A DNA stretch of 64,000 nucleotides from Cristatella mucedo (Eukaryota; Bryozoa; Phylactolaemata; Cristatellidae), in NCBI GenBank assembly GCA_009760855.2, contig WPIO01000153.1, positions 577,001 to 641,000 of the forward strand, in the 5' to 3' direction. Positions 14,124-50,611 of the stretch are shown here, one piece after another (the stretch's first letter is position 1; each line of letters starts with the position of its first letter). A program made the translations under genes and the position numbers. The notes below the pieces were generated by a model that searched no databases, was not told where the DNA came from, and saw only the letters and a list, made by a program, of their open reading frames with translations.

Positions 14124-14299
14124 CTATGCCTCTGCAATGTCCCAAAAATCTCCAGAAAGGTCCTGCATATCAGTGGAGGCATTATATGGATTAAAAAGTA
14201 GTTCGGCATTGGCCTCTTCAGATTCGACGGGCTTGTTGGCCTCGTTCATTTCTGCTTCCTCAGATTGCCAGTCGGCTACGGCCGAACTCGACATGGGAA
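14124..14299 (-). CDS. Terminal exon-B module of the array (divergent)
   Basis: The most 3' and most diverged copy of the exon-B module. On the minus strand it reads PMSSSAVADWQSEEAEMNEA, then an acidic stretch, then DLSGDFWDIAEA and a TAG. Array units carry the same segment as SSSAQADCQSKEAAMK and stop earlier at a TGA, after KLAEKE. This copy lacks that stop and extends further in frame. It also keeps the extra GAG codon that only some array units have. The 5' border at 14299 (GAAAG) is a guess: the array copies have GACAG there. Just upstream (14300-14365) is an exon-A-like segment. The function is unknown. Confidence 0.42.
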
Positions 14300-14364
14300 C
14301 TTTCGGCAGCAGCATGGCCAGCCGGTAAAATAGGCTGTGGTTGCTCTCAGACAGTCGGCATGGC

Positions 14365-14562
14365 TGGCTACAGCAACCTTGCAAGCTGACCCTGTGCTTG
14401 TCACCCCTAACCATGTTGTTCATGTTGTTTACCAAGCATTTACCAAGCGCTCTCCGTTCAATTGCGTTTGCCTTTGCAGCAAACGTAAAACATATAGAAC
14501 GAGATTGAGTTCTCTGAGGGCACTTTATCAAGTGCATAATAATAATTATTATTATAGATAGC
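14365..14562 (+). mobile_element. LINE 3' tail in the terminal unit
   Basis: The best-preserved of the 17 LINE tails in the array. It contains GTTGTTCATGTTGTTTACC, TTTGCAGCAAACG, then GAGATTGAGTTCTCTGAGGG, CACTTTATCAAGTGC and an ATTATT-type end. It lies on the + strand, antisense to the array gene. Confidence 0.8.
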
Positions 14563-15040
14563 TAAATAGCTTTGTCAAAGCCATGTGAGTCAGCTCCCAT
14601 TACTCTCGCCAGAAATTGGGCCTTGACATTAGTCAGCTAATCAGATTTGGTGGCACTTTCCTTAGCCATAGTCCCACATATAATTTCACTCTGACTACTG
14701 GAATACTTTACTATTAGAATGGCCATTTGACAGGTCGAGCTTATTCTTATAAGCTGAGTCGACTGTAGCTTCAATTAGATCGAGGTCAGACGAAATTTTG
14801 GCAAACATCTCGACAAAATTGAGACATTTTGTTCGAGGCTTTGCCTATTGCTTACTCTTGCTTCTACAGAGCATCTCTCTCTATTGTAAGTTATAGTCCT
14901 CTATAATGCAACCTAGGCCGTTTAAGCCCATGTATATGCAAGTCTGGAAACATAATATGACCTTTACACCACAACACTTATTGTGCATAAATGTAAATCA
15001 ACACGAAATTATAATAGTTATTATAATTATTATATTATAT
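14563..15040 (-). other. Possible decayed exon; otherwise unexplained
   Basis: The first 100 bp still match the sequence that follows the LINE tail in array units (GTGAGTCAGCTCC). Beyond that the sequence is unique. On the minus strand, 14700-14830 reads FVEMFAKISSDLDLIEATVD, then SAYKNKLDLSNG, after a weak acceptor (AAGCAATAG). This is helical in character like exon A but cannot be assigned. Confidence 0.3.
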
Positions 15041-15044
15041 GCCA

Positions 15045-15975
15045 GCAAGTCGATCTTTTCTCGTGCAACATTTGTGACCTGATCGGCACTGTTTGCCCTT
15101 TCTGTATATTTCTATGCCTAATCAGAAGTACAAAAGGGCAGGTTGTCGGCCTTGGCAATGGTGGCCGGTGGAGCTGCTGCTCAATAGCCTGACTGACAAT
15201 GACTGCTGCTTTGGCTGTGGCTCCTGTGGAGATTCTGCAGAGTTGACCTTCAAAGTGTTTGACAGTTTAGTCCTGGCCGTGGCGAGGGATTAGCCGGTCC
15301 CTTTAGCTTCGGCTGCCAGCGAGTCGATCTTTTCACGTGCAACATTTGTGACCTGATCAGCATTGTTTGCCCATTCTGTATATTTCTATGCCCGGTCAGA
15401 AGAGCAAAAGGGCAGGTTGTCGGCCTTGGCTATGGTGGCCGGTGGAGCTGCTGCTTTATAGCTCGACTGAGCATGACTGCTGCTTTGGCTGTGGCTCCTG
15501 TGGAGATTCTGCGGAAATGACCTTTAAAGTGTTTAGGAGTTTAGTCGAGGCCGTGGCGAGGGATTAGCCGGTCCCTTTAGCTTCGGCTTCTAGCAAGTCG
15601 ATCTTTTCTCGTGCAACATTTGTGACCTGGTCAGTATTGTTTGCCCATTCTGTATATTTCTATGCCTGGTCAGAAGTGCAAAAGGGCAGGTTGTCGGCCT
15701 CGTCGACGGTGGCCGGTGGAGCTGCTGCTCGATAGCCTGACTTACCATGACTGCTGGTTTGGCTGTGGCTCCTGTGGAGATTCTGCAGAGGGTACCTTTA
15801 TAGTGTTTAAGTGTTTAGTCGTGGCCGTTGCGAGGGATTTGCTGGTCCCTTTAGCCTCGGCTGCAGCAAGTCTATCTTTTTTTGTGAAACATTTGTGACC
15901 TGATCGGCACTGTAAGCCCTGTCTGTATATTTCTATGCCCGGTCAGAAGTGCAAAAGGGGAGGTTGTCGGCCTTG
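15045..15975 (-). repeat. Cluster of 274-bp sub-repeats (unit 17)
   Basis: Three complete and one partial copy at a period of 274 bp (anchors near 15093, 15367, 15641 and 15914). On the minus strand each contains TERANSADQVTNVAREKIDL, then AAEAKGTGKSLATATTKLLN, or close variants. Because 274 is not a multiple of three, the frame slips by one base per copy. A stop (TAG in the ATTTCTATGC word) recurs in each. The 15.37-15.87 kb part matches 29.50-30.00 kb at an offset of 14,136 bp. Confidence 0.85.
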
Positions 15976-16057
15976 GCTACGGCCACCGATTTGCCCATCA
16001 CTAATGTGCCAACTAAGTCGGCAGCAGCATTGGCCATTCCGGCGACAGACTTTGCAT

Positions 16058-16752
16058 GCTGCCATTGTTGCTTTCTTCGACAGTTCTTCTAACCAAATGC
16101 TGTCCAATTCGGCCAGCTGTATGGCCTCCATCATGTAGACGTTCGAATCCTGCCAGTTAGCCTCGGCTGAATCGATGTTGTTCGAACCGTCTCCTAGCTG
16201 CAGGCTTCTTACATAGTGACCAGCATGTTCGACGAGGGAGCCGTCACTGCCGGCGATGCCACGTTCGTGCCACCTGGCTCTATAGTGGGCGATTGTGTCG
16301 GGGAGTTCATTTGAAAGTTTGGCAAGACTGTTTGCCGTGGCCACCGATCTGGCTTCAACGCCTACGATGTTGGCCACCTGGCTGGCAGTTTCCCTGGCCG
16401 TTTGTGCATCAGCTCGTGCCTCTTCGGCAGGAGCAGCAGCCAGCCGGTAGGCTCGCCTAGCGCTGGCTGCTCTGAGAGAGTCGGCAAAGCCGGCTGCAGC
16501 CACAAGTGAAACGGCTTTGTCAAAGCCCTTGCAGTCGCCATCAGTCGCTCTAGCGAGCAATTCAGAGGTATTGTGAATAAGATACTCGGCTTGGGTAGAG
16601 CTTTCCTTTACCACAGGTTTGGCACAGGCAGAAACTTCAATCAGCTCTTTCACTTCTGCAGCAGAGGTTGCTAGCACATCACGGGTGATTGTTGACTCCA
16701 ACTCAGCCATGGCAATAGGGGCCAGCAGGTAGGCACCGAATAAGGATTCAAC
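16058..16752 (-). pseudogene. Array unit 17, exon A
   Basis: The last full exon A before the terminal module. It has the longest open frame of the array: 255 codons from the in-frame ATG at 16710. The near-universal TAG after the VEIAGD motif is a TAT here (reading HAGHYVRSLQLGDG), so the frame runs on until after the shared 29-bp deletion near 16058, which throws it into a Cys-rich out-of-frame tail. The protein is alanine-rich and helical, with AYRLAAAPAEEARADAQTAR. It resembles unit 10 most. Confidence 0.6.
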
Positions 16753-17949
16753 CTCAAAGTGAGTAAGAGAACCTTGAATTCAATGCATTGCTTGACTAAA
16801 AACCAGTGCAGGTATGCAAGCACACCTTGAGAGGGTGGAAGTAGGATCCGGTTCAAATATAAAATCAGTGGCAAGCAAGCTCATTAGATACACTAATAAG
16901 TCATCTTGCATTATGATGTAATACATGATGCATATCTGTTGATTCGGTTATGGTGTATTTTGGTTGTCGTGTACATTTTGGAATAGGCCTCTTGCAGGAT
17001 ATGCCTTAAGAAGAAATTTACTTGATGACTTTCAAGCATTTCTATGCTTTTGCCGTGATCCACAAATATCAAGAAAGGTCTAGCGACACGGCTGGGGCCA
17101 CAGTTGGTTAACAAGTAGATCGGCATTGGTTCACTCTTTTTCGGCCAGCTTGTTGACCTTCATTGCTTCTTCCTTTGATTGGCAGTCGGCCTGAGCCGAA
17201 CTCGAGTTGGGCAATGTCGGCAGCAGCACTGCCCTGCCTAGAGGCTCTGGTCACATTCAGACCGTCGACATGGCTGGCAAAAGCAAACTTGCATGCTGAC
17301 CCATTGCGTGCTACCCCGATCGAGGTTGTTCATGTTGTTTACTGAGCTTTATATTACTCACCGTTTAATTGCGTTTCCTTTTGCAGCAAGTGAAAAGCAC
17401 CAAGAAATGATTGAGTGATTTGAGCGCAATTTTAGAGAGCCTTTATGATATTATTATCATCGCCTGCAAAATAGCTTTCTCACAGCCATATGAGTCAGCT
17501 CCAGACGCTCTCGCCAGAAATCGGGCACTGATTTTGGTTAGCAAATATGCAGCAGTATGGTGCTGTCGCTCGGGAATGTGCTGCATGCTATTAGGGCAGT
17601 TGGCCGGTGGTGCTGCTGCACGATAGCCTGACTGACCATGACTGCTGCTTTGGCTTTGGCTCTTGTGGAGTCTCTGCAGAGTGTGCCTTTGAAGTGTTTA
17701 AGAGTTTACTCGTGGCCGTGGAGAGGGATTTGCTGGTCCCTTTGGCTTTGGCTGCCAGCAAGTCTATCTTTTTTGTGCAACATTTGTGACCTGATCGGCA
17801 CTGTTTGCCCTTTCTGTTTATTTCTATGCATGGACAGAAGGGCAAAATTGCAGGTTGTCGGGCTTGGCTACGGCCACCGATTTGCTCATCACTACTGTGC
17901 CGACAACGTCGGCAGCAGCATTGGCCATACCGACCACAGACTTTGCATG

Positions 17950-18643
17950 CTGCCATTGTTGGTTTCTTTGACAGTTCTTCTAACCAAATGCTGTCCATTT
18001 AGGCCAGCTGTGTGGCCTCTTTCATGTAGGCGTTCGAAGCCTGCCAGTTACCCTCGGCTGAATCGATGTTGTTCGAACCGTCTCCTAGCTGCAGGCTTCT
18101 TACCTAGTCACCGGCATGTTCGACGAGGGAGCCGTCACTGCCGGCGATGCCATGTTTGTGCCACCTGGCTCTATAGGCAGCGATCGGGTCGGAGAGTTCA
18201 TTTGAAAGTTTGGCAAGACATTTAGCCGTGGCCACTGATCTGGCTTCAACGCCTACGATGTTGGCCACCTGGCTAGCAGTTTCCCTGGCTGTCTGTGCAT
18301 CAGCACGTGCCCTTTCGGCTGCAGCAGCAGCCAGCCGGTTGGTTAGCCAGGCGCTAACTGCTCATAGAGAGTCTGCAAAGCCGGCTGCAGCCACAAGTGA
18401 AACTGCTTTGTCAAAGCCCTTGCAGTCACCATCAGTTGCTCTAACGAGCAATTTAGAGGTGGTGTAAATAAGAGACTCGGCTTTGGTGAAGCTTTCCTTT
18501 ACCACAGGTTTGGCACAGGCAGAAACTTCAATCAGCTCTTTCACTTCTGCAGCAGAGGCTGCTAGCACATCACGGGTGATGGTTGCCTCCAACTCAGCTA
18601 TGGCAATGGAGGCCAGCAGGTCGGCACCAAATAAGGATTCAAC
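17950..18643 (-). pseudogene. Array unit 16, exon A
   Basis: The initial Met codon is ATA. The frame runs through LEATITRDVLAASAAEVKEL and GFADSL and then meets a stop where CTGAGAGAG has become CTATGAG on the coding strand (TCATAG on the + strand). TAG follows the GD motif, and the 29-bp deletion is present. A two-sub-repeat unit. Confidence 0.6.
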
Positions 18644-20110
18644 CTCAAAGTGAGTAAGAGAACCTTGAATTCAATGCATTGCTTGACTAAAAACCAGTAC
18701 AGGTTTGCAAGCCCACCTTGACAGGGTGGAAGTATGATCCTGTTCAAATAGAATCAATAACAAGCAAGCTCATTAGATACACTAATAAGTCATCCTGCAT
18801 TATGATGAAATACATGATGCATATCCGTTCATTCGGTTGTGGTGTGTTTTGGTTGTCGTGTACAATTTGGTATAGGCCTCTTGCAGGATATGCCTTAGGA
18901 AGAAATTTACTTGATGACTTTCAAGCATTTTTATGCTTTTGCCGTGACCCACAAATATCAATATAGGTCTAGTGTCTCTTCTGGCGCCATAGCTGGTTGA
19001 AGTAGATCGGCATTGGTTTACTCTTTTTCGGCCAGCTTGTTGACCTTCATTGCTGCTTCCTTCAATTGGCAGTCGGCCTGAGCCGAACTCGAGTTGGGCA
19101 CTGTTGGTAGCAGTACTGCCCAGCCTATAGGCTCTGGTCACCCTCAGACCTTCTACATGGCTGGCAAAAGCAAACTTGCATGCTGACCCATTGCATGCCA
19201 CCCCTATCGAGGTTGTTCATGTTGTTTACCGAGCTTTATATTACTCACCGTTTAATTGCGTTTCCTTTTGCAGCAAGTGAAAAGCACCAAGAAAGTGATT
19301 GAGTGATTTGAGGGCACTTTTAGAGAGCATTTATGATATTATTATCATTGCCTGCAAAATAGCTTTCTCACAGCCATAAGAGTTAGCTCCAGACGCTCCC
19401 GCCAGAAATCGAGCAATGAATTTGGTTAGCGAATATGCAGCAGTATGGTGCTGTCGCTCGGGAATGTGCTGCATGCTATTAGGGCAGTTGGCCGGTGGTG
19501 CTGCTGCACGATAGCCTGACTGACCATGACTGCTGCTTTGGCTGTGGCTCCTGTGGAGATTCCGCAGCTTTGACCTTTAAAGATTTAAAGAGTTAGGTCG
19601 TGGCCGTGGCGAGGGATTTGCCGGTCCCTTTAGCTTCGCCTGCTAGCAAGTCGATCTTTTCTCGTGCAACACTATTGACCTGATCGGAACTGTTTGCCCT
19701 TTCTGTATATTTCTATGCCTGGTCAGAAGTGCATAAGGGCAGGTTGTTGGCCTTGGCTATGGTGGCCGGTTGGGCTGCCGCTCGATAGCCTGACTGACAA
19801 TGACTGCTGCTTTGGCTGTGGCTCCTGTGGAGATTCTGCAGAGTTGACCCTTAAAGTGTTTAACAGTTTAGTCGTGGCCGTGGCGATGGATCTGCCGGTC
19901 CCTTTAGCTTCGGCTGCCAGCAAGTCTATCTTTTTTGTGCAACATTTGTGACCTGATCGGCACTGTTTGTCCTTTCTGTATATTTCTATGCCCGGTCAGA
20001 AGGGCAAAATTGCAGGTTGTCGGCCTTGGCTATGGCCACCGATTTGCCAATCACTACTGTGCCAACTAAGTCGGCAGCAGCATTGGCCATACCGGCCACA
20101 GACTTTGCAT

Positions 20111-20805
20111 GCTGCCATTGTATCTTTCTTCGACAGTTCTTCTAACGAAATGCTGTCCAATTTGGCCAGCTGTATGGCCTCCTTCATGTAGGCGTTCGAA
20201 GCCTGCCAGTTAGCCTCGGCTGAATCGATGTTGTTCGAACCGTCTCGTAGCTGCAGGCTTCTTACCTAGTCACCGGAAATTTCGACGACGGAGTCGTCAC
20301 TACCGGCGATGCCACGTTCGTGCCACCTGGCTCTGTGGTGGGCGATCGGGTCCGGGAGTTCATTAGAAAGTTTGGCAACATTTCTTACCATGGCCATCAA
20401 TCAGGCTTCAACGCCTGCGATCTTAACCACCTGGCTGGCAGTTTCCCTGGCCGTCTGTGCATCAGCTCGTGCCTCTTCGGCAGCAGCAGCAGCCAGCCGG
20501 TAGTCTCGCCAGGAGCTGGCTGCTCTGAGATAGTCGGCAAAGCCGGCTGCAGCCACAAGTGAAACGGCTTTGTCAAAGCCCTTGCAGTCGCCATCAGTCG
20601 CTCTAGCGAGTAATTCAGAGGTATTGTGAATAAGATACTAGGCTTTGGTGGAGCTTTCCTTTACCACAGGTTTGGCACAGGCAGAAACTTTAATCAGCTC
20701 TTTCACTTCCGCAGAAGAGGTTGCTAGCACATCACGGGTGATTGTAGACTCCAACTCAGCCATGGCAATAGGGGCCAGCAGGTCGGCACCGAATAAGGAT
20801 TCAAC
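20111..20805 (-). pseudogene. Array unit 15, exon A
   Basis: Shares the variant LESTITRDVLATSSAEVKEL with units 7, 10 and 17 in whole or part. It is broken by TAG near 20638 (KA*Y), TGA near 20406 (EA*L) and the common TAG after the GD motif. The 29-bp deletion is present. Confidence 0.6.
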
Positions 20806-22009
20806 CTCAAAGTGAGTAAGAGAACCTTTAATTCAATGCATTGCTTGACTTAAAACTAGTGCACGTTTGCAAGCCCACCTTGACAGGGTGGAAGTACGAT
20901 CCTGTTCAAGTAGAATCAGTGCCAAGCAAGCTCATTAGATACACTAATAAGTCATCGTGCATTATGATGTAATATATGATGCATATTTATTCATTCGGTT
21001 GTGGTGTGTTTTGGTTGTCGTGTACATTTTGGTATAGGCCTCTTGCAGGATATGATGCCTTAAGAAGAAAGTTACTTGATGACTTTCAAGCATTTCTATG
21101 CTTTTGTCATGTCCCAAAAATATCAACAAAGGTCTAGCGACTCAGCTGGGGCCATAGCTGGTTAAAATGTAGATCGGCATTGGTTCACTCTGTTTCGGCC
21201 AGCTTGTTGACCTCCTTCATTGCAGGTTCCTTCAATTGGCAGTCGGTCTGAGTAGAACTCCAGTTGGGCGCTTTCGGCAGCAGCACCGCCCAGCCGATAG
21301 CCTCTGGTCACCCTCAGACCTTTGACATGGCTGGCAAAAGCAAACTTGCATGGTGACCCAATGCATGCCACCCCTATCGAGGTTGTTCATGTTGTTTACC
21401 AAGCATTATATTACTCACCGTTTAATTGCGTTTCCTTTTGCAGCAAGTGAAAAGCACCAAGAAATGATTGAGTGATTTGAGCGCACTTTTAGAGAGCCTT
21501 TATGATATTATTATCATTGCCTGCAAAATAGCTTTCTCACAGCCATATGAGTCAGCTCCAGACGCTCTCGCCAGAAATCGGGCACTGAATTTGGTTACCA
21601 AATATGCAGCAGTATGGTGCTGTCGCTCGGGAATGTGCTGCATGCTATTAGGGCAGTTGGCCGGTGGCGCTGCTGAACGATAGCCTGACTGACCGTGACT
21701 GCTGCTTTGGCTTTGGCTCTTGTGGAGATTCTGCAGGGTGTGCCTTTGAAGTGTTTAAGAGTTTACTCGTGGCCGTGGAGAGGGATTTGCTGGTCCCTTT
21801 GGCTTCGGCTGCCAGCAAGTCGATCTTTTCTCGTGCAACATTTGTGACCTGATCGGCACTGTTTGCCCTTTCTGTTTATTTCTATGCCCGGACAGAAGGG
21901 CAAAATTGCAGGTTGTCGGCCTTGGCTATGGCCACAGATTTGCCCATCACTACTGTGCCGACAACGTCGACAGCAGCATTGGCCATACCGACCACAGACT
22001 TTGCATGCT

Positions 22010-22700
22010 GCCATTGTTGGTTTCTTTGACAGTTCTTCTAACCAAATGCAGTCCAATTCGGCAAGCTGTGTGGCCTCTTTCATGTAGGCGTTCGAAGCCT
22101 GCCAGTTACCCTCGGCTGAATCGATGTTGTTCGAACCGTCTCCTAGCTGCAGGCTTCTTACCTAGTCACCGGCATGTTCAACGAGGGAGCCGTCACTGCC
22201 GGCGATGCCATGTTTGTGCCACCTGGCTCTATAGGCAGCGATCGGGTCGGAGAGTTCATTTGAAAGTTTGGCAAGAAATTTTGCCGTGGCCACCGATCTG
22301 GCTTCAACGCCTACGATGTTGGCCACCTGGCTGTCTGTTTCCCTGGCTGTCTGTGCATCAGCACGTGCCCTTTCGGCTGCAGCAGCAGCCAGCCGGTTGG
22401 CTAGCCAGGCGCTAACTGCTCAGAGAGAGTCTGCAAAGCCGGCTGCAGCCACAAGTGAAACTGCTTTGTTAAAGCCTTGCAGTCACCATCAGTTGCTCTA
22501 ACGAGCAATTTAGAGGTGGTGTAAATTAGAGACTCGGCTTTGGTGAAGCTTTCCTTTACCACAGGTTTGGCACAGGCAGAAAGTTCAATCAGCTCTTTCA
22601 CTTCTGCAGCAGAGGCTGCTAGCACATCACGGGTGATGGTTGCCTCCTACTCAGCTATGGCAATGGAGGCCAGCAGGTCGGCACCAAATAAGGATTCAAC
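22010..22700 (-). pseudogene. Array unit 14, exon A
   Basis: Nearly identical to unit 8 at a constant offset of 12,391 bp. Both share a private nonsense change (CTCCTACTCAG on the + strand, giving AE*EAT), a private single-base loss near 22470 (AAAGCCTTGC) and the loss of the initial ATG. The shared private defects show that one was copied from the other, directly or by conversion. Confidence 0.65.
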
Positions 22701-24095
22701 CTCAAAGTGAGTAAGAGAACCTTGAATTCAATGCATTGCTTGACTAAAAACCAGTACAGGTTTGGAAGCCCACCTTGACAGGGTGGAAGTATGATCCTGT
22801 TCAAATAGAATCAATGGCAAGCAAGCTCATTAAATACACTAATAAGTCACACTGCATTAGGATGAAATACATGATGCATATCTGTTGATTCGGTTATGGT
22901 GTATTTTGGTTGTCGTGTACATTTTGGTATAGGTCTCTTGCAGGATATGCCTTAAGAAGAAATTTACTTGATGACTTTCAAGCATTTCTATGCTTTTGCC
23001 GTGACCCACAAATATCAAGAAAGATCTAGCGACTCGGGTGAGGCCACAGTTGGTTAAAAAGTAGATCGGCATTGGTTCACTCTTTTTCGGCTAACTTGTT
23101 GACCTTCATTGCTGCTTCCTTCAATTGGCAGTCGGCCTGAGCCGAACTCGAGTTGGGCACTGTTGGTAGCAGTACTGCCTGCCTCCCCTATCGAGGTTGT
23201 TCATGTTGTTTACCGAGCTTTATATTACTCACCGTTTAATTGCGTTTCCTTTTGCAGCAAGTGAAAAGCACCAAGAAAGTGATTGAGTGATTTGAGCGCA
23301 CTTTTCGAGAGCCTTTATAATATTATTATCATTGCCTGCAAAATAGCTTTCTCACAGCCATATGAGTCAGCTCCAGACGCTCTCGCCAGAAATCGGGCAG
23401 TGAATTTGGTCAGCGAAAATGCAGCAGTATGGTGCTGTCGCTTTGCAATGTGCTGCATGCTATCAGGGCAGTTGGCCGGTGGTGCTGCTGCTCGATAGCC
23501 TGACTGACCATGACTGCTGCTTTGGCTGTGGCTCCTGTGGAGATTCCGCAGCTTTGACCTTTAAAGATTTAAAGAGTTAGGTCGTGGCCGTGGCGAGGGA
23601 TTTGGCGGTCCCTTTAGCTTCGCTTGCTAGCAAGTCGATCTTTTCTCGTGCAACACTATTGACCTGATCGGCACTGTTTGCCCTTTCTGTATATTTTTAT
23701 GCCTGGTCAGAAGTGCATAAGGGCAGGTTGTCGGCTTAGGCTATGGTGGCCGGTGGAGCTGCCGCTCGATAGCCTGACTGACAATGACTGCTGCTTTGGC
23801 TGTGGCTCCTGTGGAGATTCTGCAGAGTTGACCCTTAAAGTGTTGAACAGTTTAGTCGTGGCCGTGGCAAGGGATCTGCCGGTCCCTTTAGCTTCGGTTG
23901 CCAGCAAGTCTATCTTTTTGTGCAACATTTGTGACCTGATCGGCACTGTTTGCCCTTTCTGTATATTTCTATGCCCGGTCAGAAGGGCAAAATTGCAGGT
24001 TGTCGGCCTTGGCTATGGCCACCGATTTGCCAATCACTACTGTGCCAACTAAGTCGGCAGCAGCATTGGCCATACCGGCCACAGACTTTGCATGC

Positions 24096-24788
24096 TGCCA
24101 TTGTATCTTTCTTCCACAGTTCTTCTAACCAAATGCTGTCCAATTCGGCTAGCTGTATGGCCTTCTTCATGTAGGCGTTCGAAGCCTGCCAGTTAGCCTC
24201 GGCTGAATCGATGTTGTTCGAACCTTCTCCTAGCTGTAGGCTTCTTACCTAGTCACCGGCAATTTCGACGAGGGAGTAGTCACTGCCGGCGATGCCACGT
24301 TCGTGCCACCTGGCTCTGGTGGCAGCGATCCGATCGGGGGGTTCATTTGAAAGTTTGGCAAGAATTCTTGCCGCGGCCACCGATCTGGCTTCAACGCCTG
24401 CGATCTTGGCCACCTGGCTGGCAGTTTCCCTGGCTGTCTGTGCATCAGCTCGTGCCTCTTCGGCAGCAGCAGCAGCCAGCCGGTAGGCTCGCCAGGCGCT
24501 GGCTGCTCTAAGAGAGTCTGCAAAGCCGGCTGCAGCCACAAGTGAAACCGCTTTGTCAAAGCCCTTGACGTCACCATCAGTCGCTCTAGCGAGCAATTTA
24601 GAGGTAGTGTAAATAAGAAACTCGGCTTTGGTGGAGCTTTCCTTTACCACAGGTTTGGCAGAGGCAGAAACTTCAATCAGCTCTTTCACTACTGCAGCAG
24701 AGGCTGCTAGCACATCACGGGTGATGGTTGCCTCCAACACAGCCATGGCTATGTAGGCCAGCAGGTCGGCACCGATAAAGGATTCAAC
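24096..24788 (-). pseudogene. Array unit 13, exon A
   Basis: Open for 165 codons from 24746 to the TAG after VEIAGD at 24249. Clean alanine-rich reading: SLRAASAWRAYRLAAAAAEE, then ADAQTARETASQVAKIAGV. It is followed by the common 29-bp deletion near 24096. The unit-12 spacer just 5' of this unit has a roughly 250-bp deletion (24925-24940), which explains the short 1.63-kb spacing. Confidence 0.62.
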
Positions 24789-30420: not shown

Positions 30421-30465
30421 ACGTAGGCAGCAGCATTGGCCATTCCGGCCACAGACTTTGCATGC

Positions 30466-38660: not shown

Positions 38661-39211
38661 GCTGCCATTGTTGCTTCCTTCGACAGTTCTTCTAACTAAA
38701 TGCTGTCCGATTCGGCAAGCTGTATGGCCTCCTTCATGTAGGTGTTCGAAGCCTGCCAGTTAGCCTCGGCTGAATCGATGTTGTTCGAACCGTCGCCTAC
38801 CTGTAGGCTTCTTACCTAGTCACCGGCAATTTTGAGCAGGGAGTTGTCACTGCTGGCGATGCCACGTTTGTGCGACCTGGCTCTATAGGCTGCGATCGGG
38901 TCGGAGAGTTCATTTGAAAGTTTGGCAAGAATTTTTGCCTTCGCCACTGATCTTGCTTCAACGCCTACGATGTTGCCCACCTGGCTGGCAGCTTCCTTGG
39001 CTGTCTGTGCGTCAGCTCGTGCCTTTCCGGCTGCAGCAGCAGCCAGCCGGTAGGCTCGCCAGGCGCTAACTGCTCTGAGAGAATCTGCAAAGCCGGCTGC
39101 AGCCACAAGTGAAACGGCTTTTGAGGCTGCTAGCACATCACGGGTGATATTTGCCTCCAACTCAGCCATGGCAATGGAGGCCAGCAGGTCAGCACCGAAC
39201 AAGGATTCAAC
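38661..39211 (-). pseudogene. Array unit 6, exon A (in-frame deletion)
   Basis: Open from 39202 to the common TAG at 38816. Forty-eight codons are missing in frame: VLAAS joins directly to KAVSLVAAAG, relative to unit 5. The reading FGADLLASIAMAELEANITR shows that the frame continues upstream of the ATG toward the acceptor, as expected for an internal exon. Confidence 0.62.
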
Positions 39212-40679
39212 CTCAAAGTGAGTAAGAGAACCTTGAATTCAATGCATTGCTTGACTAAAAACCAGTACAGGTTTGCAAGCACACCTTGAGAGGGTAGAAG
39301 TAGGATCCTGTTCAAGAAGAATCAGTGCCAAGCAAGCTCATTAGATACACTGATAAGTCATCGTGCATTATGATGTAATATATGATGCATATCTGTTCAT
39401 TCGGTTGTGGTGTATTTTGGTTGTCTTGTACATGTTGGTATAGGCCTCTTGTAGGATATGCCTTCAGAAGAAACTTACTTGATGACTTTCAAGCATTTCT
39501 ATGCTTTTGCCGTGACCCACAAATATCAAGAAAGGTCTAGCGACTCGGCTGGGGCCATAGCTGGTTGAAAAGTAGATCGGCATTGGTTCAATCTTTTTCG
39601 GCCAGCTTGTTGACCTTCATTGCTGCATCCATCAATTGGCAGTAGGCCTCAGCCGAACTCGAGTTTGGCACTGTTAGTATCAGAAATGCCCAGCCTATAG
39701 GCTCTGGTCGCCCTTAGAATTTCTACATGGCTGGCAAAAGCAAACTTGAGTGCTGACCCATTGCATGCCACCCCTATCGAGGTTGTTCATGTTGTTTACC
39801 GAGCTTTATATTACTCACCGTTTAATTGCGTTTCCTTTTGCAGCAAGTGAAAAGCACCAAGAATGTGATTGAGTGATTTGAGCGCACTTTTAGAGAGCCT
39901 TTATGATATTATTATCATTGCTTGCAAAATAGCTTTCTCACAACCATATGAGTCAGCTCCAGAAGCTGTCGCCAGAAATCGGGCACTGAGTTTGGTTAGC
40001 AAATATGCAGCAGTATGGTGCTGTCGCTCGGGAATGTGCTGCATGCTATTCGGGCAGTTGGCCGGTGGTGCTGCTGCACGATAGCCTGACTGACCATGAC
40101 TGCTGCTTTGGCTTTGGCTCTTGTGGAGATTCTGCAGAGTGTTCCTTTGAAGTGTTTAAGAGTTTACTCGTGGCCGTGGAGAGGGATTTGCTGGTCCCTT
40201 TAGCTTCGGCTGCCAGCAAGTCTATCTTTTTTGTGCAACGTTTGTGACCTGATCGGCACTGTTTGCCCTTTCTGTATAATTCTATGCCTGGTCAGAAGTG
40301 CAAATGGGCAGGTTGTCGGTCTTGACTATGGTGGCCGGTGGAGCTGCCGCTCGATAGCCTGACTAACAATGACTGCTGCTTTGGCTTTGGCTCCTGTGGA
40401 GATTCTGCAGAGTTGACCCTTAAAGTGTTTAACAGTTTAGTCGTGGCCGTGGCGAGGGATCTGCCGGTCCCTTTAGCTTCGGCTGCCAGCAAGTCTTTCT
40501 TTTTCGTGCAACATTTGTGACCTGATCGGCACTGTTTGCCCTTTCTGTATATTTCTATGCCCGGTCAGAAGGGCAAGATTGCAGGTGTTCGGCCTTGGCT
40601 ACGGCCGCCGATTTGCCCATCACTACTGTGCCGACAACGTCGGCAGCAGCATTGGCCATACCGACCACTTACTTTGCAT

Positions 40680-41374
40680 GCTGCCATTGTTGCTTTCTTC
40701 GAAAGTTCTTCTAACCAAATGCTGTCCAATTCGGCCAGCTGTATGGCTTCCTTCATGTAGGCGTTCGAAGCCTGCCAGTTAGCCTCGGCTGAATCGATGT
40801 TGTTCGAACCGTCTCGTAGCTGCAGGCTTCTTACCTAGTCACCGGAAATTTCGACGACAGAGTTGTCACTACCGGTGATGCCATGTTCGTGCCACCTGGC
40901 TCTATAGTGGGCGATCGGGTCGGGGAGTTCATTCGAAAGTTTGGCAAGATTTCTTACCGTGGCCATCGATCTGGCTTCAAAGCCTGCGATCTTGGCCACC
41001 TGGCTGGCAGTTTCCCTAGCTGTCTGTGCATCAGCTTGTGCCTTTCCGGCAGCAGCAGCAGCCAGCCGGTAGCCTCGCCAGGAGCTGGCTACTCTGAGAG
41101 AGTCTGCAAAGCCGGCTTCAGCCACAAGTGAAACAGCTTTGTCAAAGTCCTTGCAGTCACCATCAGTGGCTCTATCGAGCAATTTAGAGGTTGTGTGAAT
41201 AAGAGACTCGGCTTTGGTGGAGCTTTCCTTAACCACAGGTTTGGTATAGGCAGAAACTTCAATCAGCTCTTTCACTTCTGCAGCAGAGGCTGCTAGGACA
41301 TCACGGGTGATTGTTGCCTCTAAGTCAGCCATGGCTATGGAGGCCAGCCGGTCAGCACCGAATAAGGATTCAAC
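40680..41374 (-). pseudogene. Array unit 5, exon A
   Basis: Open for 165 codons (41332-40835), beginning MADLEATITRDVLAASAAEV. SSWRGYRLAAAAAGKAQ subtype. Its 3' two thirds, the sub-repeats and the LINE tail match unit 3 at a constant 4,577-bp offset (39600-41088 versus 44177-45665). The common TAG and the 29-bp deletion are present. Confidence 0.62.
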
Positions 41375-43117
41375 CTCAAAGTGAGTAAGAGAACCTTGAA
41401 TTCAATGCACACCTTGACTTAAAACTAGTGCACGTTTGCAAGCCCACCTTGACAGGGTAGAAGTATGATCCTGTTCAAGTAGAATCAGTGCAAAGCAAAC
41501 TCATTAGATACACTAATAGGTCATCCTGCATTATGATGTAATATATGATGCATATTTATTCATTCGGTTGTGGTGTGTTTTGGTTGTCGTGTACATTTTG
41601 GTATAGGCCTCTTGCAGGATATGATGCCTTAAGAAGAAATTTACTTGATGACTTTCAAGCATTTCTATGCTTTTGCCGAGACCCACAAATATCAATAAAG
41701 GTCTAGCGACTCGGCTGGGGCCATAGCTGGTTAAATAGTAGATCGGCATTGGTTCACTCTTTTTCGGCCAGCTTCTTGACCTTCATTGCTGCTTCCTTCG
41801 ATTGGCAGTCGGCCTGAGCCGCAGTCGAGTTGGGCACTGTCGGCAGCAGCACTGCCCTGCCTATAGGCTCTGGTCACCCTCAGACCTTCGACATGGCTTG
41901 CAGAAGCAAACTTGCATGCTGACCCGTTGCATGCCTCCCCTATCGAGGTTGTTCATGTTGTTTACCAAGCGTTATATTACTCACCATTTAATTGCGTTTC
42001 CTTTTGCAGCAAGAGAGAAGCACCAAGAAAGTGACTAAGTGATTTGAGCGCACTTTTTAGGAGCCTTATTAATATTATTATTATTGCCTGCAAAATAGCT
42101 TTCTCACAGCCATATGAGTTAGCTTCAGACGTTCTCGCCAGAAATCAGGCAGTGAATTTGGTCAGCGAATATGCAGCAGTATGGTGCTGTCGCTCGGGGA
42201 TGTGCTGCATGCTCTTAGGGCAGTTGGCCGTTAGTGCTGCTGCTCGATAGCCTGACTGACCATGACTGCTGCTTTGGCTGTGGCTCCTGTGGATATTCTG
42301 CAAAGTTGACCTTTAAAGTGTGTAAGAGTTTAGTTGCGGCCGTGGCGAGGGATTTGCCGGTCCCTTTAGCTTCGCCTGGCAGCAAGTCGATCTTTTCTCG
42401 TGCAACATTTTTGACGTGATCAGCACTGTTTGCCCTTTCTGTATGTTTCTATACCTGGTCAGAAATGCAAAAGCGAAGGTTGTCGGCCTTGTCGACGGTG
42501 TTCGGAGGAGCTGCTGCTTGATAGCCTGACTGACCGTGACTGCTGCATTGGCTGTGGCACCTGTGGATATTCTGCAGAATTGACCTTTTAAGTTTTCCAG
42601 AGTTTAGTCGTTGCCGTGGCAAGGGATTTGACGGTCCCTTTAGCTTCGGCTGCCAGCAAGTCAATCTTTTCTCGTGCGACATTTGTGACCTGATCGGCAC
42701 TGTTTGCCCTTTTAGAATAATTCTATGCCTCGTCAGACGTGCAAATAGGCAGGTTGTCGGCTTGCTATGATGGCCCGTGGCGCTGCAGCTCGATAGCCTG
42801 ACTGACAATGACTGCTGCTTTGGCTGTGGCTCCTGTGGAGATTCTGCAGAGTTAACCCTTAAAGTGTTTAACAGTTTAGTCGTGGCCGTGGTGAGGGATC
42901 TGCCGGTCCCTTTAGCTTCGGCTGCCAGCAAGTCTATCTTTATCGTGCAACTTTTGTGACCTGATCGGCACTGTTCGCCCTTTCTGTATATTTCTATGCC
43001 CGGTCAGAAAGGCAAAATTGCAGGTGTTCGGCCTTGGCTATGGCCACCGATTTGCTCATCACTACTGTGCCAACTAAGTCGGCCGCAGCATTGGCCATAC
43101 CGGCCACAGACTTTGCA

Positions 43118-43785
43118 TGCATCCATTGTTGCTTCCTTCGACAGTTCTTCTAACTAAATGCTGTCCAATTCGGCAAGCTGTATGGCCTCCTTAATGTAGG
43201 CGTTCGAAGCCTGCCAGTTAGCCTCGGCTGAATCGACGTTATTCGAACCGTCTCCTACCTGTAGGCTTCTTACCTAGTCACCGGCAATTTCGAGCAGGGA
43301 GTTGTCACGGCCGGCGATGCCACGTTTGTGCGGCCTGGCTCTATAGGCAGCGATCGGGTCGGAGAGTTCATTTGAAAGTTTGGCAAGAATTTTTGCCGTG
43401 GCCACTGATCTGGCTTCAACGCCTACGATGTTGGCCACCTGGCTGGCAGTTTCCTTGGCTGTCTGTGCATCAGCTCGTGCCTTTCCGGCTGCAGCAGCAG
43501 CCAGCCGGTAGGCTGGCCAGGCGCTAACTGCTATGAGAGAATCTGCAAAGCCGGCTAGCCCTTGCAGTCACCATCAGTTGCTCTTGCGAGCAATTTAGAG
43601 GTATTGTGAATAAGATACATGGCTTTGGTGGAGCTTTCCTTTACCACGGGTTTAGCACAGGCAGAAACTTCAATCAGCTCTTTCACTTCTGCAGCAGAGG
43701 CTGCTAGCACATCACGGGTGATGGTTGCCTCCAACTCAGCCATGGCAATGGAGGCCAGCAGGTCGGCACCGAATAAGGATTCAAC
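43118..43785 (-). pseudogene. Array unit 4, exon A (28-nt deletion)
   Basis: The first 62 codons are open (43743-43555). A 28-nt deletion then removes the KAVSLVAAA region and shifts the frame. The remaining exon is recognisable but out of frame. Confidence 0.62.
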
Positions 43786-45256
43786 CTCAAAGTGAGTAAG
43801 AGAACCTTGAATTCAATGCATCGCTTGACTAAAAACGAGTACAGGTTTGCAAGCACACCTTGAGAGGGTGGAAGTAGGATCCTGTTCAAGTAGAATCAGT
43901 GCCAAGCAAGCTCATTAGATACACTGATAAGTCATCGTGCATTATGATGTAATATATGATGCATATCTGTTCATTCGGTTGTGGTGTATTTTGGTTGCCT
44001 TGTACATTTTTTTATAGGCCTCTTGCAGGATATGATGCCTTAAGCAGAAATTTACTTGATGACTTTCAAGCATTTCTATGCTTTTGCCGAAATCCACAAA
44101 TATCAAGAAAGGTCTAGCGACTCGGCTGGGGCCATAGCTGGTTAAAAAGTAGATCGGCATTGGTTCACTCTTATTCGGCCAGCTTGTTGACCTTCATTGC
44201 TGCATACTTCAATTGGCAGTCGGCCTCAGCCGAACTCGAGTTTGGCACTGTTAGTAGCAGCACTGCCCAGCCTATAGGCTCTGGTCTACCTCAGACCTTC
44301 TACATGGCTGGCAAAAGCAAACTTGCATGCTGACCCATTGCATGCCACCCCTAACGAGGTCGTTCATGTTGTTTACCGAGCTTTATATTACTCACCGTTT
44401 AATTGCGTTTCCTTTTGCAGCAAGTGAAAAGCACCAGGAAAGTGATTGAGTGATTTGATTTCACTTTTAGAGAGCCTTTATGATATTATTATAATTGCCT
44501 GCAAAATAGCTTTCTCACAGCCATATGAGTCAGCTCCAGACGCTCTCGCCAGAAATCGGGCACTGAATTTGGTTACCAAATATGCAGCAGTATGGTGCTG
44601 TCGCTCGGGAATGTGCTGCATGCTATTAGGGCAGTTGGCCGGTGGTGCTGCTGCACGATAGCCTGACTGACCATGACTGCTGCTTTGGCTTTGGCTCTTG
44701 TGGAGACTCTGCAGAGTGTTCCTTTGAAGTGTTTAAGAGTTTACTCGTGGCCGTGGAGAGGGATTTGCTGGTCCCTTTAGCTTCGGCTGCCTGCAAGTCT
44801 ATCTTTTTTGTGCAACGTTTGTGACCTGATCGGCACTGTTTGCCCTTTCTGTATAATTCTATGCCTGGTCAGAAGTGCAAATGGGCAGGTCGTCGGTCTT
44901 GGCTATGGTGGCCGGTTGAGCTGCCGCTCGATAGCCTGACTAACAATGACTGCTGCTTTGGCTGTGGCTCCTGTTGAGCTTCTGCAGAGTTGACCCTTAA
45001 AGTGCTCAACAGTTTAGTCGTGGCTGTGGCGAGGGATCTGCCGGTCCCTTTAGCTTCGGCTGCCAGCAAGTCTTTCTTTTTCGTGCAACATTTGTGACCT
45101 GATCGGCACTGTTTGCCCTTTCTGTATATTTCTATGCCCGGTCAGAAGGGCAAGATTGCAGGTGTTCGGCCTTGGCTACGGCCACCGATTTGCCCATCAC
45201 TACTGTGCCGACAACGTCGGCAGCAGCATTGGCCATACCGACCACTTACTTTGCAT

Positions 45257-45950
45257 GCTGCCATTGTTGCTTTCTTCGAAAGTTCTTCTAACCAAATGCT
45301 GTCCAATTCGGCCAGCTGTATGGCTTCCTTCATGTAGGCGTTCGAAGCCTGCCAGTTAGCCTCGGCTGAATCGATGTTGTTCGAACCGTCTCGTAGCTGC
45401 AGGCTTCTTACCTAGTCACCGGAAATTTCGACGACAGAGTTGTCACTACCGGTGATGCCATGTTCGTGCCACCTGGCTCTATAGTGGGCGATCGGGTCGG
45501 GGAGTTCATTCGAAAGTTTGGCAAGATTTCTTACCGTGGCCATCGATCTGGCTTCAAAGCCTGCGATCTTGGCCACCTGGCTGGCAGTTTCCCTAGCTGT
45601 CTGTGCATCAGCTTGTGCCTTTCCGGCAGCAGCAGCAGCCAGCCGGTAGCCTCGCCAGGAGCTGGCTGATCTGATAGAGTCGGCAAAGCCGGCTGCAGCC
45701 ACAAGTGAAACTGCTTTGTCAAAGCCCTTGCAGTCACCATCAGTTCTCTAGCGAGCAATTCAAAGGCATTGTGAATAAGATACTCGGCTTTGGTGGAGCT
45801 TTCCTTTACCACAGGTTTGGCACTGGCAGAAACTTCAATCAGCTCTTTCACTTCTGCAGCAGAGGCTGCTAGGACGTCACGGGTGATTGTCTCCTCTAAG
45901 TCAGCCATGGCTATGGAGGCCAGCAGGTCAGCACCGAATAAGGATTCAAC
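45257..45950 (-). pseudogene. Array unit 3, exon A (frameshifted)
   Basis: Begins MADLEETITRDVLAASAAEV. A two-base loss near 45747 (CAGTTCTCTAG for CAGTTGCTCTAG) puts the rest in another frame (45702-45412), where FADSIRSASSWRGYRLAAAA continues to the common TAG. The downstream block is the 4,577-bp-offset twin of unit 5. Confidence 0.62.
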
Positions 45951-46799
45951 CTCAAAGTGAGTAAGAGAACCTTGAATTCAATGCATTGCTTGACTTAAAA
46001 CTAGTGCACGTTTGCAAGCACACCTTGACAGGGTGGAAGTACGATCCTGTTCAAGTAGAATCAGTGCCTAGCAAGCTCATTAGATACACTAATAAGTCAT
46101 CGTGCATTATGATGTAATATAGGATGCATATTTATTTATTCGGTTGTGGTGTGTTTTGGTTTTCGTGTACATTTTGGTATAGGCCTCTTGCAGGATATGA
46201 TGCCTTAAGAAGAAATTTACTTGAAGACTTTCAAGCATTTCTATGCTTTTGCCGAGACCCACAAATATCAATAAAGGTCTAGGGACTCGGCAGGGGCCAT
46301 AGCTGGTTAAAAAGTAGATCGGCATTGGTTCACTCTTTTTTGGCCAGCTTGTTGACCTCCATTGCTGCTACCTTCGATTGGCAGTCGGCCTGAGCCGAAC
46401 TCGAGTTGGGCACTGTCGGCAGCAGCACTGCTATGTCTATAGGCTCTGGTCACCCTCAGACCTTCGACATGGCTTGCAGAAGCAAACTTGCATGCTGACC
46501 CATTGCAGGCCACCCCTGTCGAGGTTGTTCATGTTGTTTACCAAGCCTTGTATTACTCACCGTTTAACTGCGTTTCCTTTTTGAGCAAGTGAAAAGTACC
46601 AAGAAAGAGATTGAGTGATTTGAGTGCACTTTTCAAATCCCTTCATAATATTATTGTCATTGCCTGCAAAATAGCTTATTCACAGCCATATGAGTCACCT
46701 CCAGACGCTCTCGTCAGAAATCGGGCAGTGAATTTGGTCAGCGAAAATGCAGCAGTATGGTGCTGTCGCTTGGCAATGTGCTGCATGCTATCAGGGCAG

Positions 46800-47600
46800 T
46801 TGCCCGGTAGTGCTGCTGATCGATAGCCTGACTGACCATGACTGCTGCTTTGGCTGTGGCTCCTGTGGATATTCAGCAGAGTTGACCTTGAAGGTGTTCC
46901 GGAGTTTAGTCGTTGCCGTGGTGAGGGATTTGCCGGTGCCTTTAGCTTCGCCTGCCAGCAAGTCGATCTTTTCTCGTGCAACATTTGTGACCTGATCGGC
47001 ACTGTTTGCTATTTCTGTATATTTCTATGCCTGGTCAGAAGTACAAAAGGGCAGGTTGTCGGCCTTGGCAATGGTGGCCGGTGGAGCTGCTGCTCAATAG
47101 CCTGACTGACCATGACTGCTGCTTTGGCTGTGGCTCCTGTGGAGATTCTGCAGAGTTGACCTTTAAGGTGTTCCAGAGTTTAGTCGTTGCCGTGGTGAGG
47201 GATTTGCCGGTCCCTTTAGCGTCGCCTGCCAGCAAGTCGATCTTTTATCGTGCAACATTTGTGACCTGATCAGTATTGTTTGCCCATTCTGTATATTTCT
47301 ATGCCTGGTCAGAAGTACAAAAGGGGAGGTTGTCGGCCTTGGCTATGGTGGCCGGTGGAGCTGCTGCGCGATAACGTGACTGACCATGAGTGCTGCTTTG
47401 GCTGTGGCTCCTGTGGACATTGCAGAGTTGACCTTCAAAGTGTGTAACAGTTTAGTCGTGGCCATGGCGAGGGATTTGCCAGTCCCTTTAGATTCGCCTG
47501 CCAGCAAGTCAATCTTTTTTGTGCAACATTTGTGACCTGATCGGCACTGTTTGCCCTTTTTGCATATTTCTATGCCCGGTCAGAAGGGCAAAAGGGCAGG
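46800..47600 (-). repeat. Cluster of about 274-bp sub-repeats (unit 2)
   Basis: Anchors near 47027, 47300 and 47572, plus a partial copy at 46800-46990. The preceding block (45930-47050) matches 28300-29420 at an offset of 17,629 bp, a further long-range near-duplicate within the array. Confidence 0.8.
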
Positions 47601-47696
47601 TTGTCGGCCTTGGCTATGGCCACCGATTCGCCCATCACTACTGTGCCAACTAAGTCGGCAGCAGCACTGGCCATTCTGGCCACAGAGTTTGCATAC

Positions 47697-48389
47697 TGCC
47701 ATTGTTGCTTTCTTCTACAGTTCTTCTAACTATATGCTGTCCAATTCGGCCAGCTGTATGGCCTCCTTCATGTAGCCGTTCGAAGCCTGCCAGTTAGCCT
47801 CGGCTGAATCGATGTTGTTCAAACCGTCTCCTCGCTGCAGGCTTCTTACCTAGTCACCGGCATGCTCGACGAGGGAGTCGTCACTGCCGGCGATGCCACG
47901 CTCGTGCCACCTGGCTCTATAGGCGGCGATCGGGTCAGGGAGTTCATTTAAAAGTTTGGCAAGACTTTTTGCCGTTGCCACCGGTCTGGCTTCAACGCCT
48001 ACGATCTTGGCCACCTGGCTGGCAGTTTCCCTGGCTGTCTGTGCATCAGCTCGTGATTCTTCGGCAGCAGCAGCAGCTTGCCGGTAGGCTCGCCAGGCGC
48101 TATCTGCTCAGCGAGAGTTTGCAAAGGCGGCTGCAGCCACAAGTGAAACCGCTTTGTCAAAGTCCTTGCAGTCACCATCAGTGGCTCTATCGAGCAATTT
48201 AGAGGTTGTGTGAATAAGAGACTCGGCTTTGGTGGAGCTTTCCTTAACCACAGGTTTGGCACAGGCACAAACTTAAATCAGCTCCTTCACTTCTGCAGCA
48301 GAGGCTGCTAGCACATCTCGGGTGATGGTTGCCTCCAACTCAGCCATGGCAATGGAGGCCAGCAGGTCGGCACCGAATAAGGATTCAAC
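47697..48389 (-). pseudogene. Array unit 2, exon A (several stops)
   Basis: Starts MAELEATITRDVLAASAAEV, then has a TAA at the KELIE position (48273 region) and a TGA in the SLRA position. It continues as AWRAYRQAAAAAEESRADAQ to the common TAG after the GD motif. The 29-bp deletion near 47690 is present. Confidence 0.6.
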
Positions 48390-48677
48390 CTCAAAGTGAG
48401 TAAGAGAACCTTGAATTTAACGCATTGCTTGACATAAAACCAGTGCAGGTTTGCAAGCACATCTTAAGAGGGTGGAAGTAGGATCCTGTTTAAATAGAAT
48501 CAGTGGCAAGCGAGCTCATTAGATACACTAATAAGTCATCGTGCATTATGATGTAATATATGATGCATATCTATTCATTCGGTTGTGGTGTGTCTTGGTT
48601 GTCGTGTACATTTTGGTATAGGCCTCTTGCAGGATATGCCTTAAGAAGAAATTTACTTGATGACTTTCAAGCATTAC

Positions 48678-48962
48678 TTAGCTTTCGCCGTGACCCACAA
48701 ATCTCAGGAAAGGTCTAGGGAGTCGGCTGGGGCCTAAGCTGGTTAAAAATATAGATCGGCATTGGTTCACTCTTTTTCGGCCAGTTTGTTGACCTCCTTC
48801 ATTGCTGCTTCCTTCGATTGGCAGTCGGTCTGAGCCGAACTCGAGTTTGGCACTTTCGGCAGCAGCACTGCCCAGCCGATAGGCTCTGGTCACCCTCAGA
48901 TTATTGATATGGCTTGCAAAAGCAAACTTGCATGCTGACCCATTGCATGCCACCCCTATCAA
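48678..48962 (-). pseudogene. Unit 1 exon-B module
   Basis: Contains an exon-A-like stretch (VTRAYRLGSAAAESAKLEFG, compare AWRAYRLAAAAAEEARAD in exon A). The SSSAQTDCQSKEAAMKEVNK segment follows in a different frame, ending at a TGA after KLAEKE. It retains the GAG-GTC insertion also seen in units near 21210 and, as GAG-GCC, in the terminal module. Exon B is therefore an ancient partial duplicate of exon A plus a C-terminal tail. Confidence 0.5.
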
Positions 48963-49239
48963 GGTTGTTCATATTCTATACCAAACGTTATATTACTCAC
49001 CGTTTAATTACGTTTCCTTTTGCAGCAAGTGAAAAGTACCAAGAAAGTGATTGAGTGATTTGAGGGCACTTTTCAAGAGCCTTAATAATATTATTGTCAT
49101 TGCCTGAAAAAAAGCTTTCTCATAGCCATATGAGTTAGCTCCAGACGCTCTCGCCAGAAATCGGGCAGTGAATTTGGTCAGCAAACATGCAGCAGTATGG
49201 TGCTATCGCTCGGGAATGTGCTGCATGCTATTAGGGCAG

Positions 49240-49800
49240 TTGGCCGGTGGTGCTGCTGCTCGATAGCCTGACTTACCATGACTGCTCCTTTGGCTGTGGC
49301 TCCTGTGGATATTCTGCAGAGTTGACCTTTAAAGATTTAAAGAGTTTAATCGTGGCCGCGGCGAGGGATTTGCCGGTCTCTTTACCTTCGGCTGCCAGCA
49401 AGTCGATCTTTTCTCGTGCAACATTTGTGACCTGATAGGCACTCTTTGCCGTTTCTGTATATTTCTTTTCCCGGTCAGAAGTGCAAAAGGGCAGGCTGTC
49501 GGCCTTGTCAACGGTCGCCGGTGGAGCTGATGCTCGATTGCCTGAATGACCATGACTGCTGCTTTGGCTGTGGCTCCTGTGGAGATTCTGCAGAGTTGAC
49601 ATTTAAAGATTTTAATAGTTAAGTCGTGGCCGCGGCAGGGATTTGCCGGTCCCTTTAGCTTCGGCTGCCAGCAAGTCAATTTTTTCTTGTGCAACATTTG
49701 TGACCCGATCGGCACTGTTTGCCCTTTCTGTATATTTCTATGCCCGGTCAGAAGTGCAAAAGGGCAGGTTATCGGCCTTGGCTACGGCCACCGATTTGCC
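49240..49800 (-). repeat. Sub-repeats of unit 1 (91-codon period)
   Basis: The two best copies are exactly 273 bp (91 codons) apart (anchors 49481 and 49754), unlike the 274-bp period elsewhere. One copy reads CTSDREKKYTETAKSAYQ with a sense codon, where others have TAG. A one-base loss in GCGGCAGGG near 49637 accounts for 273 in place of 274. The copies are still not open end to end. Confidence 0.7.
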
Positions 49801-49892
49801 TGTCACTACTCTGCCAACTAAGTCGGCAGCAGCATTGGCCGTACCGGCTACAGGCTTAGCTGAAGCTCCAGCAGCATCAGCAAGCAAGTTTG

Positions 49893-50611
49893 CTGCCATT
49901 GTTTCTTTCTTCGACAGTTCTTCTAACATAATGCTGTCCAATGCGGCCAGCTGTATGGCCTTCTTCATGTAGGCGTCTGAAGCCTGCCAGTTTGCCTCGG
50001 CTGAATCGATGTTGTTTGCACCGTCTCCTAACTGCAGGCTTCTTACCAAGTCGCCGGCAATTTATATGAGGGAGTCGTCAATGTCGGTGATGCCACGTTC
50101 GTGCCACCTGGCTCTGGTGGCTGCGATTTGGTCGGGGAGTTTATTTGAAAGTTCGACAATAATTCTTGCCGTGGCCACCGATCTGGCTTCGACGCCTACG
50201 ATCTTGGCCATCTGGCTGGCAGTTTCCCTGGCTGTCTGTGCATCAATCAGCTCGTGCCTCTTCGGCAGCAGCAGCAGCCAGCCGGTAAGCTCGCCAGGCG
50301 CTGGCTACTCTGAGAGAGTCTGCAAAGCCGGCTTCAGCCACAAGTGAAACAGCTATGTCAAAGCCCTTGCAGTCACCATCAGTGGCTCTAGGGAGCAATT
50401 TAGAGGTGGTGTGAGTAAGAGACCCGGCTTTGGTGGAGCTTTCCTTTACCACAGGTTTGGTACAGGCAGAAACTTCAATCAGCTCTTTCACTTCTGTAGC
50501 AGAGGCGGCTGGCTCATCACGGGTGATGGTTGCCTCCAACTCAGCCATGGCTACGGAGGCGAGGAGGTCGGCACCAAATAGAGAAGTATTCCCATCGCAA
50601 AAGTGTTGGGG
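49893..50611 (-). pseudogene. Array unit 1, exon A (least degraded, 5' end)
   Basis: The 5'-most unit. Its reading begins at an acceptor-like TGCTCTCAACAG with PQHFCDGNTSLFGADLL in the same phase as the VESLFGADLL of other units. It runs MAELEATITRD to AAEEARAD (50243), where a 4-bp duplication (ATCA) creates TGA. It then resumes as DAQTARETASQMAKIVGV. The codon that is TAG in most units is TTG here (GDLVRSLQLG). It alone keeps 29 bp after KKETMAA, so the frame runs on through NLLADAAGASAKPVAG to VAKADNLPFC. The sequence 5' of about 50570 is unrelated to other units and may derive from an LTR. It is the best proxy for the ancestral gene. Confidence 0.6.

Follow-up and report, generated by a model that had tools for sequence, protein, structure and literature searches.

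A probable macrosatellite-like array derived from a disabled orphan gene in the bryozoan Cristatella mucedo

Introduction

Does a long row of gene-like blocks in a bryozoan genome still encode proteins, or has a gene been turned into a repeat array? This question is raised by a stretch of 64,000 nucleotides of Cristatella mucedo (NCBI GenBank assembly GCA_009760855.2, 572 Mb in 688 contigs), which comprises positions 577001-641000 of contig WPIO01000153.1 (hereafter C59) and is referred to as the window. An earlier note on the window described an array of 17 gene-derived units, each with an internal repeat of 91 codons, encoding an alanine-rich protein of no familiar family, and proposed its nested organisation as something undescribed. 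The gene-derived origin and the nesting are supported by the present analysis. The locus is most probably a macrosatellite-like array, which would have grown by unequal exchange from an orphan gene that was already disabled.

Structure and distribution of the array

Seventeen head-to-tail exon-A-like blocks were found on the minus strand, in agreement with the earlier count, and homology places the bounds of the array at about 14006-50585 in the window instead of 14124-50611. Each unit, with its 5' end toward the right, consists of an exon-A-like block (~0.8 kb), a block of 273-bp sub-repeats and a spacer, mostly of 0.86 kb (range 608-861 bp). Chance similarity is excluded because the units share ~90% identity over ~2 kb. 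The spacings of exon A are 1891, 2162, 1895, 2087, 1643, 1891, 2837 and 2163 bp from u1 to u9, and 1770, 1824, 2293, 2166, 2411, 2165, 2439 and 2200 bp from u9 to u17; head-to-tail units of kilobase size (spacing 1643-2837 bp), as in a macrosatellite, are therefore present. The size classes of 1.89, 2.16 and 2.43 kb with a step of ~273 bp, on which the earlier note relied, are real, but the formula 1891+273n (n being the number of full sub-repeats per unit, entered by hand) matches only 8 of the 16 spacings within 4 bp. Among the other eight, three fit spacer deletions of 75, 248 and 119 bp and two fit exon-A deletions of 144 bp (u12) and 28 bp (u14), and the remaining three belong to u8 with an extra partial sub-repeat of ~126 bp, the scrambled u11 and the edge unit u17 with insertions of its own. 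At least one period of the sub-repeat occurs in all 17 units, the block size ranging from 0.98 to 4.45 periods, and near-full sub-repeats measure exactly 273 bp in 9 of 19 cases and 222-272 bp in the rest. Unit number and sub-repeat number have varied separately, as had been suggested.

Relatives of the array are concentrated at one place. A protein search of the genome gave at least 44 matches, all within C59:561-693k in one 131-kb cluster, whereas a DNA search gave at least 53, with 40 on C59 and 13 elsewhere (both counts are lower bounds). A restriction to one or few loci, which is also typical of macrosatellites, is seen in that all 44 protein matches found lie in this cluster. The units also contain pieces resembling a long interspersed nuclear element (LINE), which we take to be such from sequence motifs, Pfam having given no reverse-transcriptase match for the open reading frames (ORFs) concerned. 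Immediately before exon A, 15 of the 17 units have a 63-bp LINE-like fragment (u13 and u17 had no blastn match), and 16 of 17 contain a LINE-like 3' tail in antisense orientation. The 13 DNA matches off C59 cover only query positions 1564-1666, around the LINE-like fragment. The possibility, raised in the earlier note, that exon A is the ORF of a dispersed transposon was rejected, as all of its protein matches found are on C59. A second, opposed array lies on the plus strand at about C59:653-669k, and further copies occur at C59 561-565k, 646k, 672k, 685k and 692k. An inverted repeat with 99.2% identity over 2343 bp and then 96.7% over 301 bp is situated where the opposed arrays have their outer ends, and its flanks are diverged inside the contig.

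Shared lesions and coding status

The amplified units share two disabling lesions. A 29-bp frameshifting deletion is present in 15 of the 15 units u1-u10 and u12-u16, and a premature TAG, from TTG, in 14 of them; u1 has TAT at this place, which is read as a later change. Unit u11, which stands outside the scoring of the 29-bp deletion, carries the TAG as well. All three units aligned from the second array (L022a, L022b and L011a) bear both lesions, and neither is found in u17, L009c, L014a, L014b, L014c, L010 or L012, which have TTG or, in L012, TTA. Several copies lacking the two lesions bear other stops or shifts; for instance, u17 carries a frameshift and a stop of its own. Since both lesions are common to the amplified units and not to the outlying copies, the amplified units descend from a copy bearing both.

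The exon-A-like blocks also diverge in the manner of their own spacers. Differences were counted at 696 of 12796 aligned sites (5.4%) in exon A (15 rows, u11 and u17 dropped) and at 661 of 13242 (5.0%) in 16 spacers, a difference with p=0.11 when sites are treated as independent. Up to the shared stop, the 15 units show 73 synonymous, 142 nonsynonymous and 8 nonsense distinct changes, compared with 54.7, 138.3 and 7.7 expected from spacer rates (u11 and u17 dropped; rates without spacers 11 and 17), so there is no depletion of nonsense changes. No 40-bp block or invariant run is conserved beyond shuffles in exon A or spacer (P 0.81 and 0.50), and the most variable blocks do exceed the shuffled expectation (P 0.0075 and 0.0165). 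The longest ORF of the array, in u1, has 255 aa, the majority consensus meets an in-frame stop after 165 codons from its ATG, and the ATG is absent in 4 of 17 units. The internal array of 91 codons is not borne out, as the sub-repeat block has a stop in every minus-strand frame in 16 of 17 units, u2 alone being open. The view that the units now encode protein is likewise at odds with their spacer-like divergence and common lesions. We conclude from these sequence comparisons that the array as a whole is apparently not maintained as protein-coding; a few units may still be.

Copying of units and sub-repeats

The relationships among units point to copying of whole units. Exon-A identity is mostly 89-93% among interior units other than u11, with closer groups formed by u2/u4/u10 (97.2-98.8%), u13/u15 (96.9%) and u8/u12/u14 (93.7-95.5%). 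In a tree of 25 copies, from which u11 was left out and in which 9 of 22 inner branches are open, these three groups have 100/100 support, as has the pairing of u1 with L022b of the second array. Furthermore, 12 of the 19 near-full sub-repeats have a neighbour in the same unit, and the nearest relative lies in another unit in 12 of 12 (one tie). The order of sub-repeats corresponds between u12 and u14 and between u1 and u8. As the nearest sub-repeat relatives are in other units, copying involved whole units, sub-repeats included, and in some cases blocks of units. The pattern is compatible with unequal exchange, which would be the mechanism.

A better-kept copy between the arrays

One copy, L010 (C59:646782-647570), lies 5.8 kb right of the window between the opposed arrays. 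It is open for 263 codons, followed by a stop and 96 further open codons in frame. When L009c serves as sister and L012 as outgroup, the L010 branch shows 17 synonymous and 22 nonsynonymous changes and no nonsense change, a synonymous excess with p=0.016 (kappa 2) or 0.006 (kappa 1), uncorrected for several comparisons; the L009c branch has 10, 28 and 0 (p=0.58). Six other sisters gave 11-18 synonymous, 15-24 nonsynonymous and 0-1 nonsense changes on the L010 branch. The pairwise ratio of nonsynonymous to synonymous substitution rates is 0.51 between L010 and L012, with a range of 0.44 to 1.20 over all computed pairs. This suggests that L010 was under selection for longer than the array, and it may be a still working gene.

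The encoded protein

Consistent with the earlier note, no match was found in Pfam, NCBIfam or PDB for the ORFs of the array or of L010. The Pfam set comprised ten proteins, made up of nine window proteins and a consensus, and eight more of L010 and L012, and its only matches (E 0.012-0.19) were below curated cut-offs, none of them to the exon-A frame of the array or L010. Additionally, no relative of the L010 ORF was found in PHROGs or in prokaryote genome contigs, and none of the consensus in viral contigs. The AlphaFold2 model of the u1 frame is helical and poor (mean predicted local distance difference test score 50.7, predicted template modelling score 0.29). The encoded protein is alanine-rich and probably helical. 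As far as these tools reach, the gene appears to be an orphan within Pfam, NCBIfam and PDB, eukaryote protein databases not being covered. The alanine-rich antifreeze proteins of flounder (PMC9122973) were judged to be probably unrelated from their sequence character.

Feature coordinates and neighbouring sequence

Table 1. Positions of the array, its units and associated features in the window.
Feature	Position	Strand or orientation	Remark
Whole array, 17 units	14006..50585	-	by homology
u17 exon-A-like block, right edge	49744..50580	-	sub-repeat block 49241-49784
u16 exon-A-like block	47576..48380	-	sub-repeat block 46804-47619
u15 exon-A-like block	45138..45941	-	sub-repeat block 44636-45178
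u14 exon-A-like block, 28-bp deletion	43000..43776	-	sub-repeat block 42225-43043
u13 exon-A-like block	40561..41365	-	sub-repeat block 40059-40601
u12 exon-A-like block, 144-bp deletion	38542..39199	-	sub-repeat block 37766-38582
u11 exon-A-like block, scrambled	36100..36906	-	sub-repeat block 35938-36303
u10 exon-A-like block	34279..35082	-	sub-repeat block 34049-34322
u9 exon-A-like block	32508..33312	-	sub-repeat block 32006-32551
u8 exon-A-like block	30345..31149	-	sub-repeat block 29172-30385 (4.45 periods)
u7 exon-A-like block	27508..28312	-	sub-repeat block 27281-27548
u6 exon-A-like block	25617..26421	-	sub-repeat block 25388-25657
u5 exon-A-like block	23975..24778	-	sub-repeat block 23473-24018
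u4 exon-A-like block	21888..22691	-	sub-repeat block 21658-21931
u3 exon-A-like block	19992..20796	-	sub-repeat block 19489-20035
u2 exon-A-like block	17830..18634	-	sub-repeat block 17601-17870
u1 exon-A-like block	15939..16743	-	255-aa ORF 15943-16710; sub-repeat block 15040-15979
u1 diverged 3' part	14006..14640	-	~72-74% to interior spacers
LINE-like 3' tail within u1 3' part	14379-14549	opposite to u1
Example spacer (u17 3' part)	48381..49240	-	in all units at ~89-90% or in pieces
Example 63-bp LINE-like fragment directly before exon A	48388..48450	-	blastn
Inverted-repeat arm	12397..15040		other arm C59:672660-675298, outside window

Within u11, many small insertions occupy ~240 bp of exon A (window 36302-36600), some of them resembling sequence from other parts of the unit; the patch is due to a template switch or to an assembly error. 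LINE-like copies, so labelled from sequence character, also lie on the minus strand at 59400-60440 and 11385-11832 of the window, and the 3' tail of these copies has an inverted match in the array spacer. No relative of the LINE-like ORF was found in viral contigs. The left flank contains direct repeats (444-2044, 5279-7162 and 10648-11301), ~5.1-5.4 kb apart and of 74-77% identity. A second inverted repeat, at L013, pairs C59:692675-694280 with 699520-697913 (95.5% over 1608 bp). An ORF at L012:314-712 shows weak similarity to a tail-fibre protein of phages (phrog_26630, E 0.0062) and has no Pfam match. The window gave no tRNA and no Rfam match above the gathering score. Of three listed let-7 matches, one exceeds the cut-off, pointing to a bilaterian animal.

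Discussion

The nested structure, the shared lesions, the spacer-like divergence and the one-cluster distribution make it probable that the locus is a macrosatellite-like array grown from a disabled orphan gene. A small local gene family within the 131-kb cluster would have been the starting point. One copy would then have gained the premature stop and the frameshifting deletion, and unequal exchange may have multiplied this disabled copy, together with adjoining LINE-like fragments, one unit or a few units at a time. Growth and shrinkage of the internal 273-bp repeat may have proceeded separately from changes in unit number. At present coding constraint on the drifting units would be slight or absent, and they presumably have no function; the edges are among the most diverged parts.

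Several observations weigh against such a history. There is a weak synonymous excess among the units, with a nonsynonymous/synonymous ratio of 0.77 by spacer rates (p=0.04) and 0.72 by another expectation (p=0.009), sites being treated as independent; distinct indels number 6 in exon A versus 15 in the spacer; 5 of 17 units, namely u1, u5, u8, u13 and the shortened u12, retain an ATG whose frame stays open as far as the shared stop (165 codons); and average sub-repeat identity is equal for the 9 within-unit pairs (88.3%) and the 162 between-unit pairs (88.5%). The first three of these would favour a tandem gene family in use, with a truncated, alanine-rich 165-residue protein as the product of some units and the rest as pseudogenes. 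Such a family is nevertheless unlikely, as nonsense changes occur at their expected number, exon A is no less variable than the spacer, four units have no ATG, and the shared stop and deletion remove the remaining frame.

The opposed arrays may instead be imagined as a source of silencing RNA, of a hairpin or Piwi-interacting-RNA-like type, directed against a live orphan gene between them at C59:646.8k. The presence of homologous arrays on both strands of one contig, the nearly identical inverted repeat at their outer ends and the better-kept copy in between speak for this, and unit and sub-repeat number would then tune the silencing output; but no block of exon A or spacer is conserved beyond chance, and the idea is quite improbable. 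It is highly improbable that the array or its inverted arrangement is an artefact of assembly. The scrambled u11 and the 99.2% identity of the inverted repeat could be taken as signs of one, but the flanks of that repeat are diverged inside the contig, and simple stutter of the assembly is improbable, given that differences between exon-A copies are mostly 7-11% and that the closest pair, u4 and u10, is 98.8% identical.

The array is best compared with human macrosatellites such as D4Z4, RS447 and TAF11-Like, in which kilobase units are arranged in tandem at one or few places, the units holding an ORF or its remnant (PMC3018141). In TAF11-Like, transposon pieces lie inside the unit and the guanine-cytosine (GC) content is near 49% (PMC3018141). 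The present array shares the kilobase units, the one or few places and the ORF remnant with human macrosatellites in general, and the transposon pieces within the unit and a GC content near 49% with TAF11-Like. It differs from them in that its units are ~10% different from each other, have disabling lesions in common in the ORF and each hold a variable internal 273-bp repeat. The fit to macrosatellites rests on unit size and one-cluster distribution in one assembly.

Other systems show partial likeness. Alpha-satellite higher-order repeats consist of diverged units duplicated jointly in blocks; the array resembles them in such block duplication and differs in its few units, long monomer and single cluster. 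Megasatellites inside yeast genes have a large internal repeat of variable number, as here, whereas stops interrupt the internal repeat in 16 of the 17 units of the array. Stellate and Suppressor of Stellate of Drosophila are gene-derived tandem arrays with related genes nearby. The array likewise consists of gene-derived tandem copies near related genes, but it is known from DNA alone and its protein has no known relation. No earlier description of this array was found in the literature searched, a negative that carries little weight. To our knowledge, it is uncommon in detail for such an array to have an internal repeat nested in its units and a second array opposed to it. The organisation is of a known kind, a kilobase-unit array with ORF remnants, and not the new kind of system that the earlier note had envisaged.

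The locus would illustrate clearly how an orphan gene can become a macrosatellite-like array. The order of events is readable because a single 131-kb cluster contains lesioned units, lesion-free relatives and a better-kept copy. Should that copy be alive, the effect of amplified dead copies on a live relative could be tested there.

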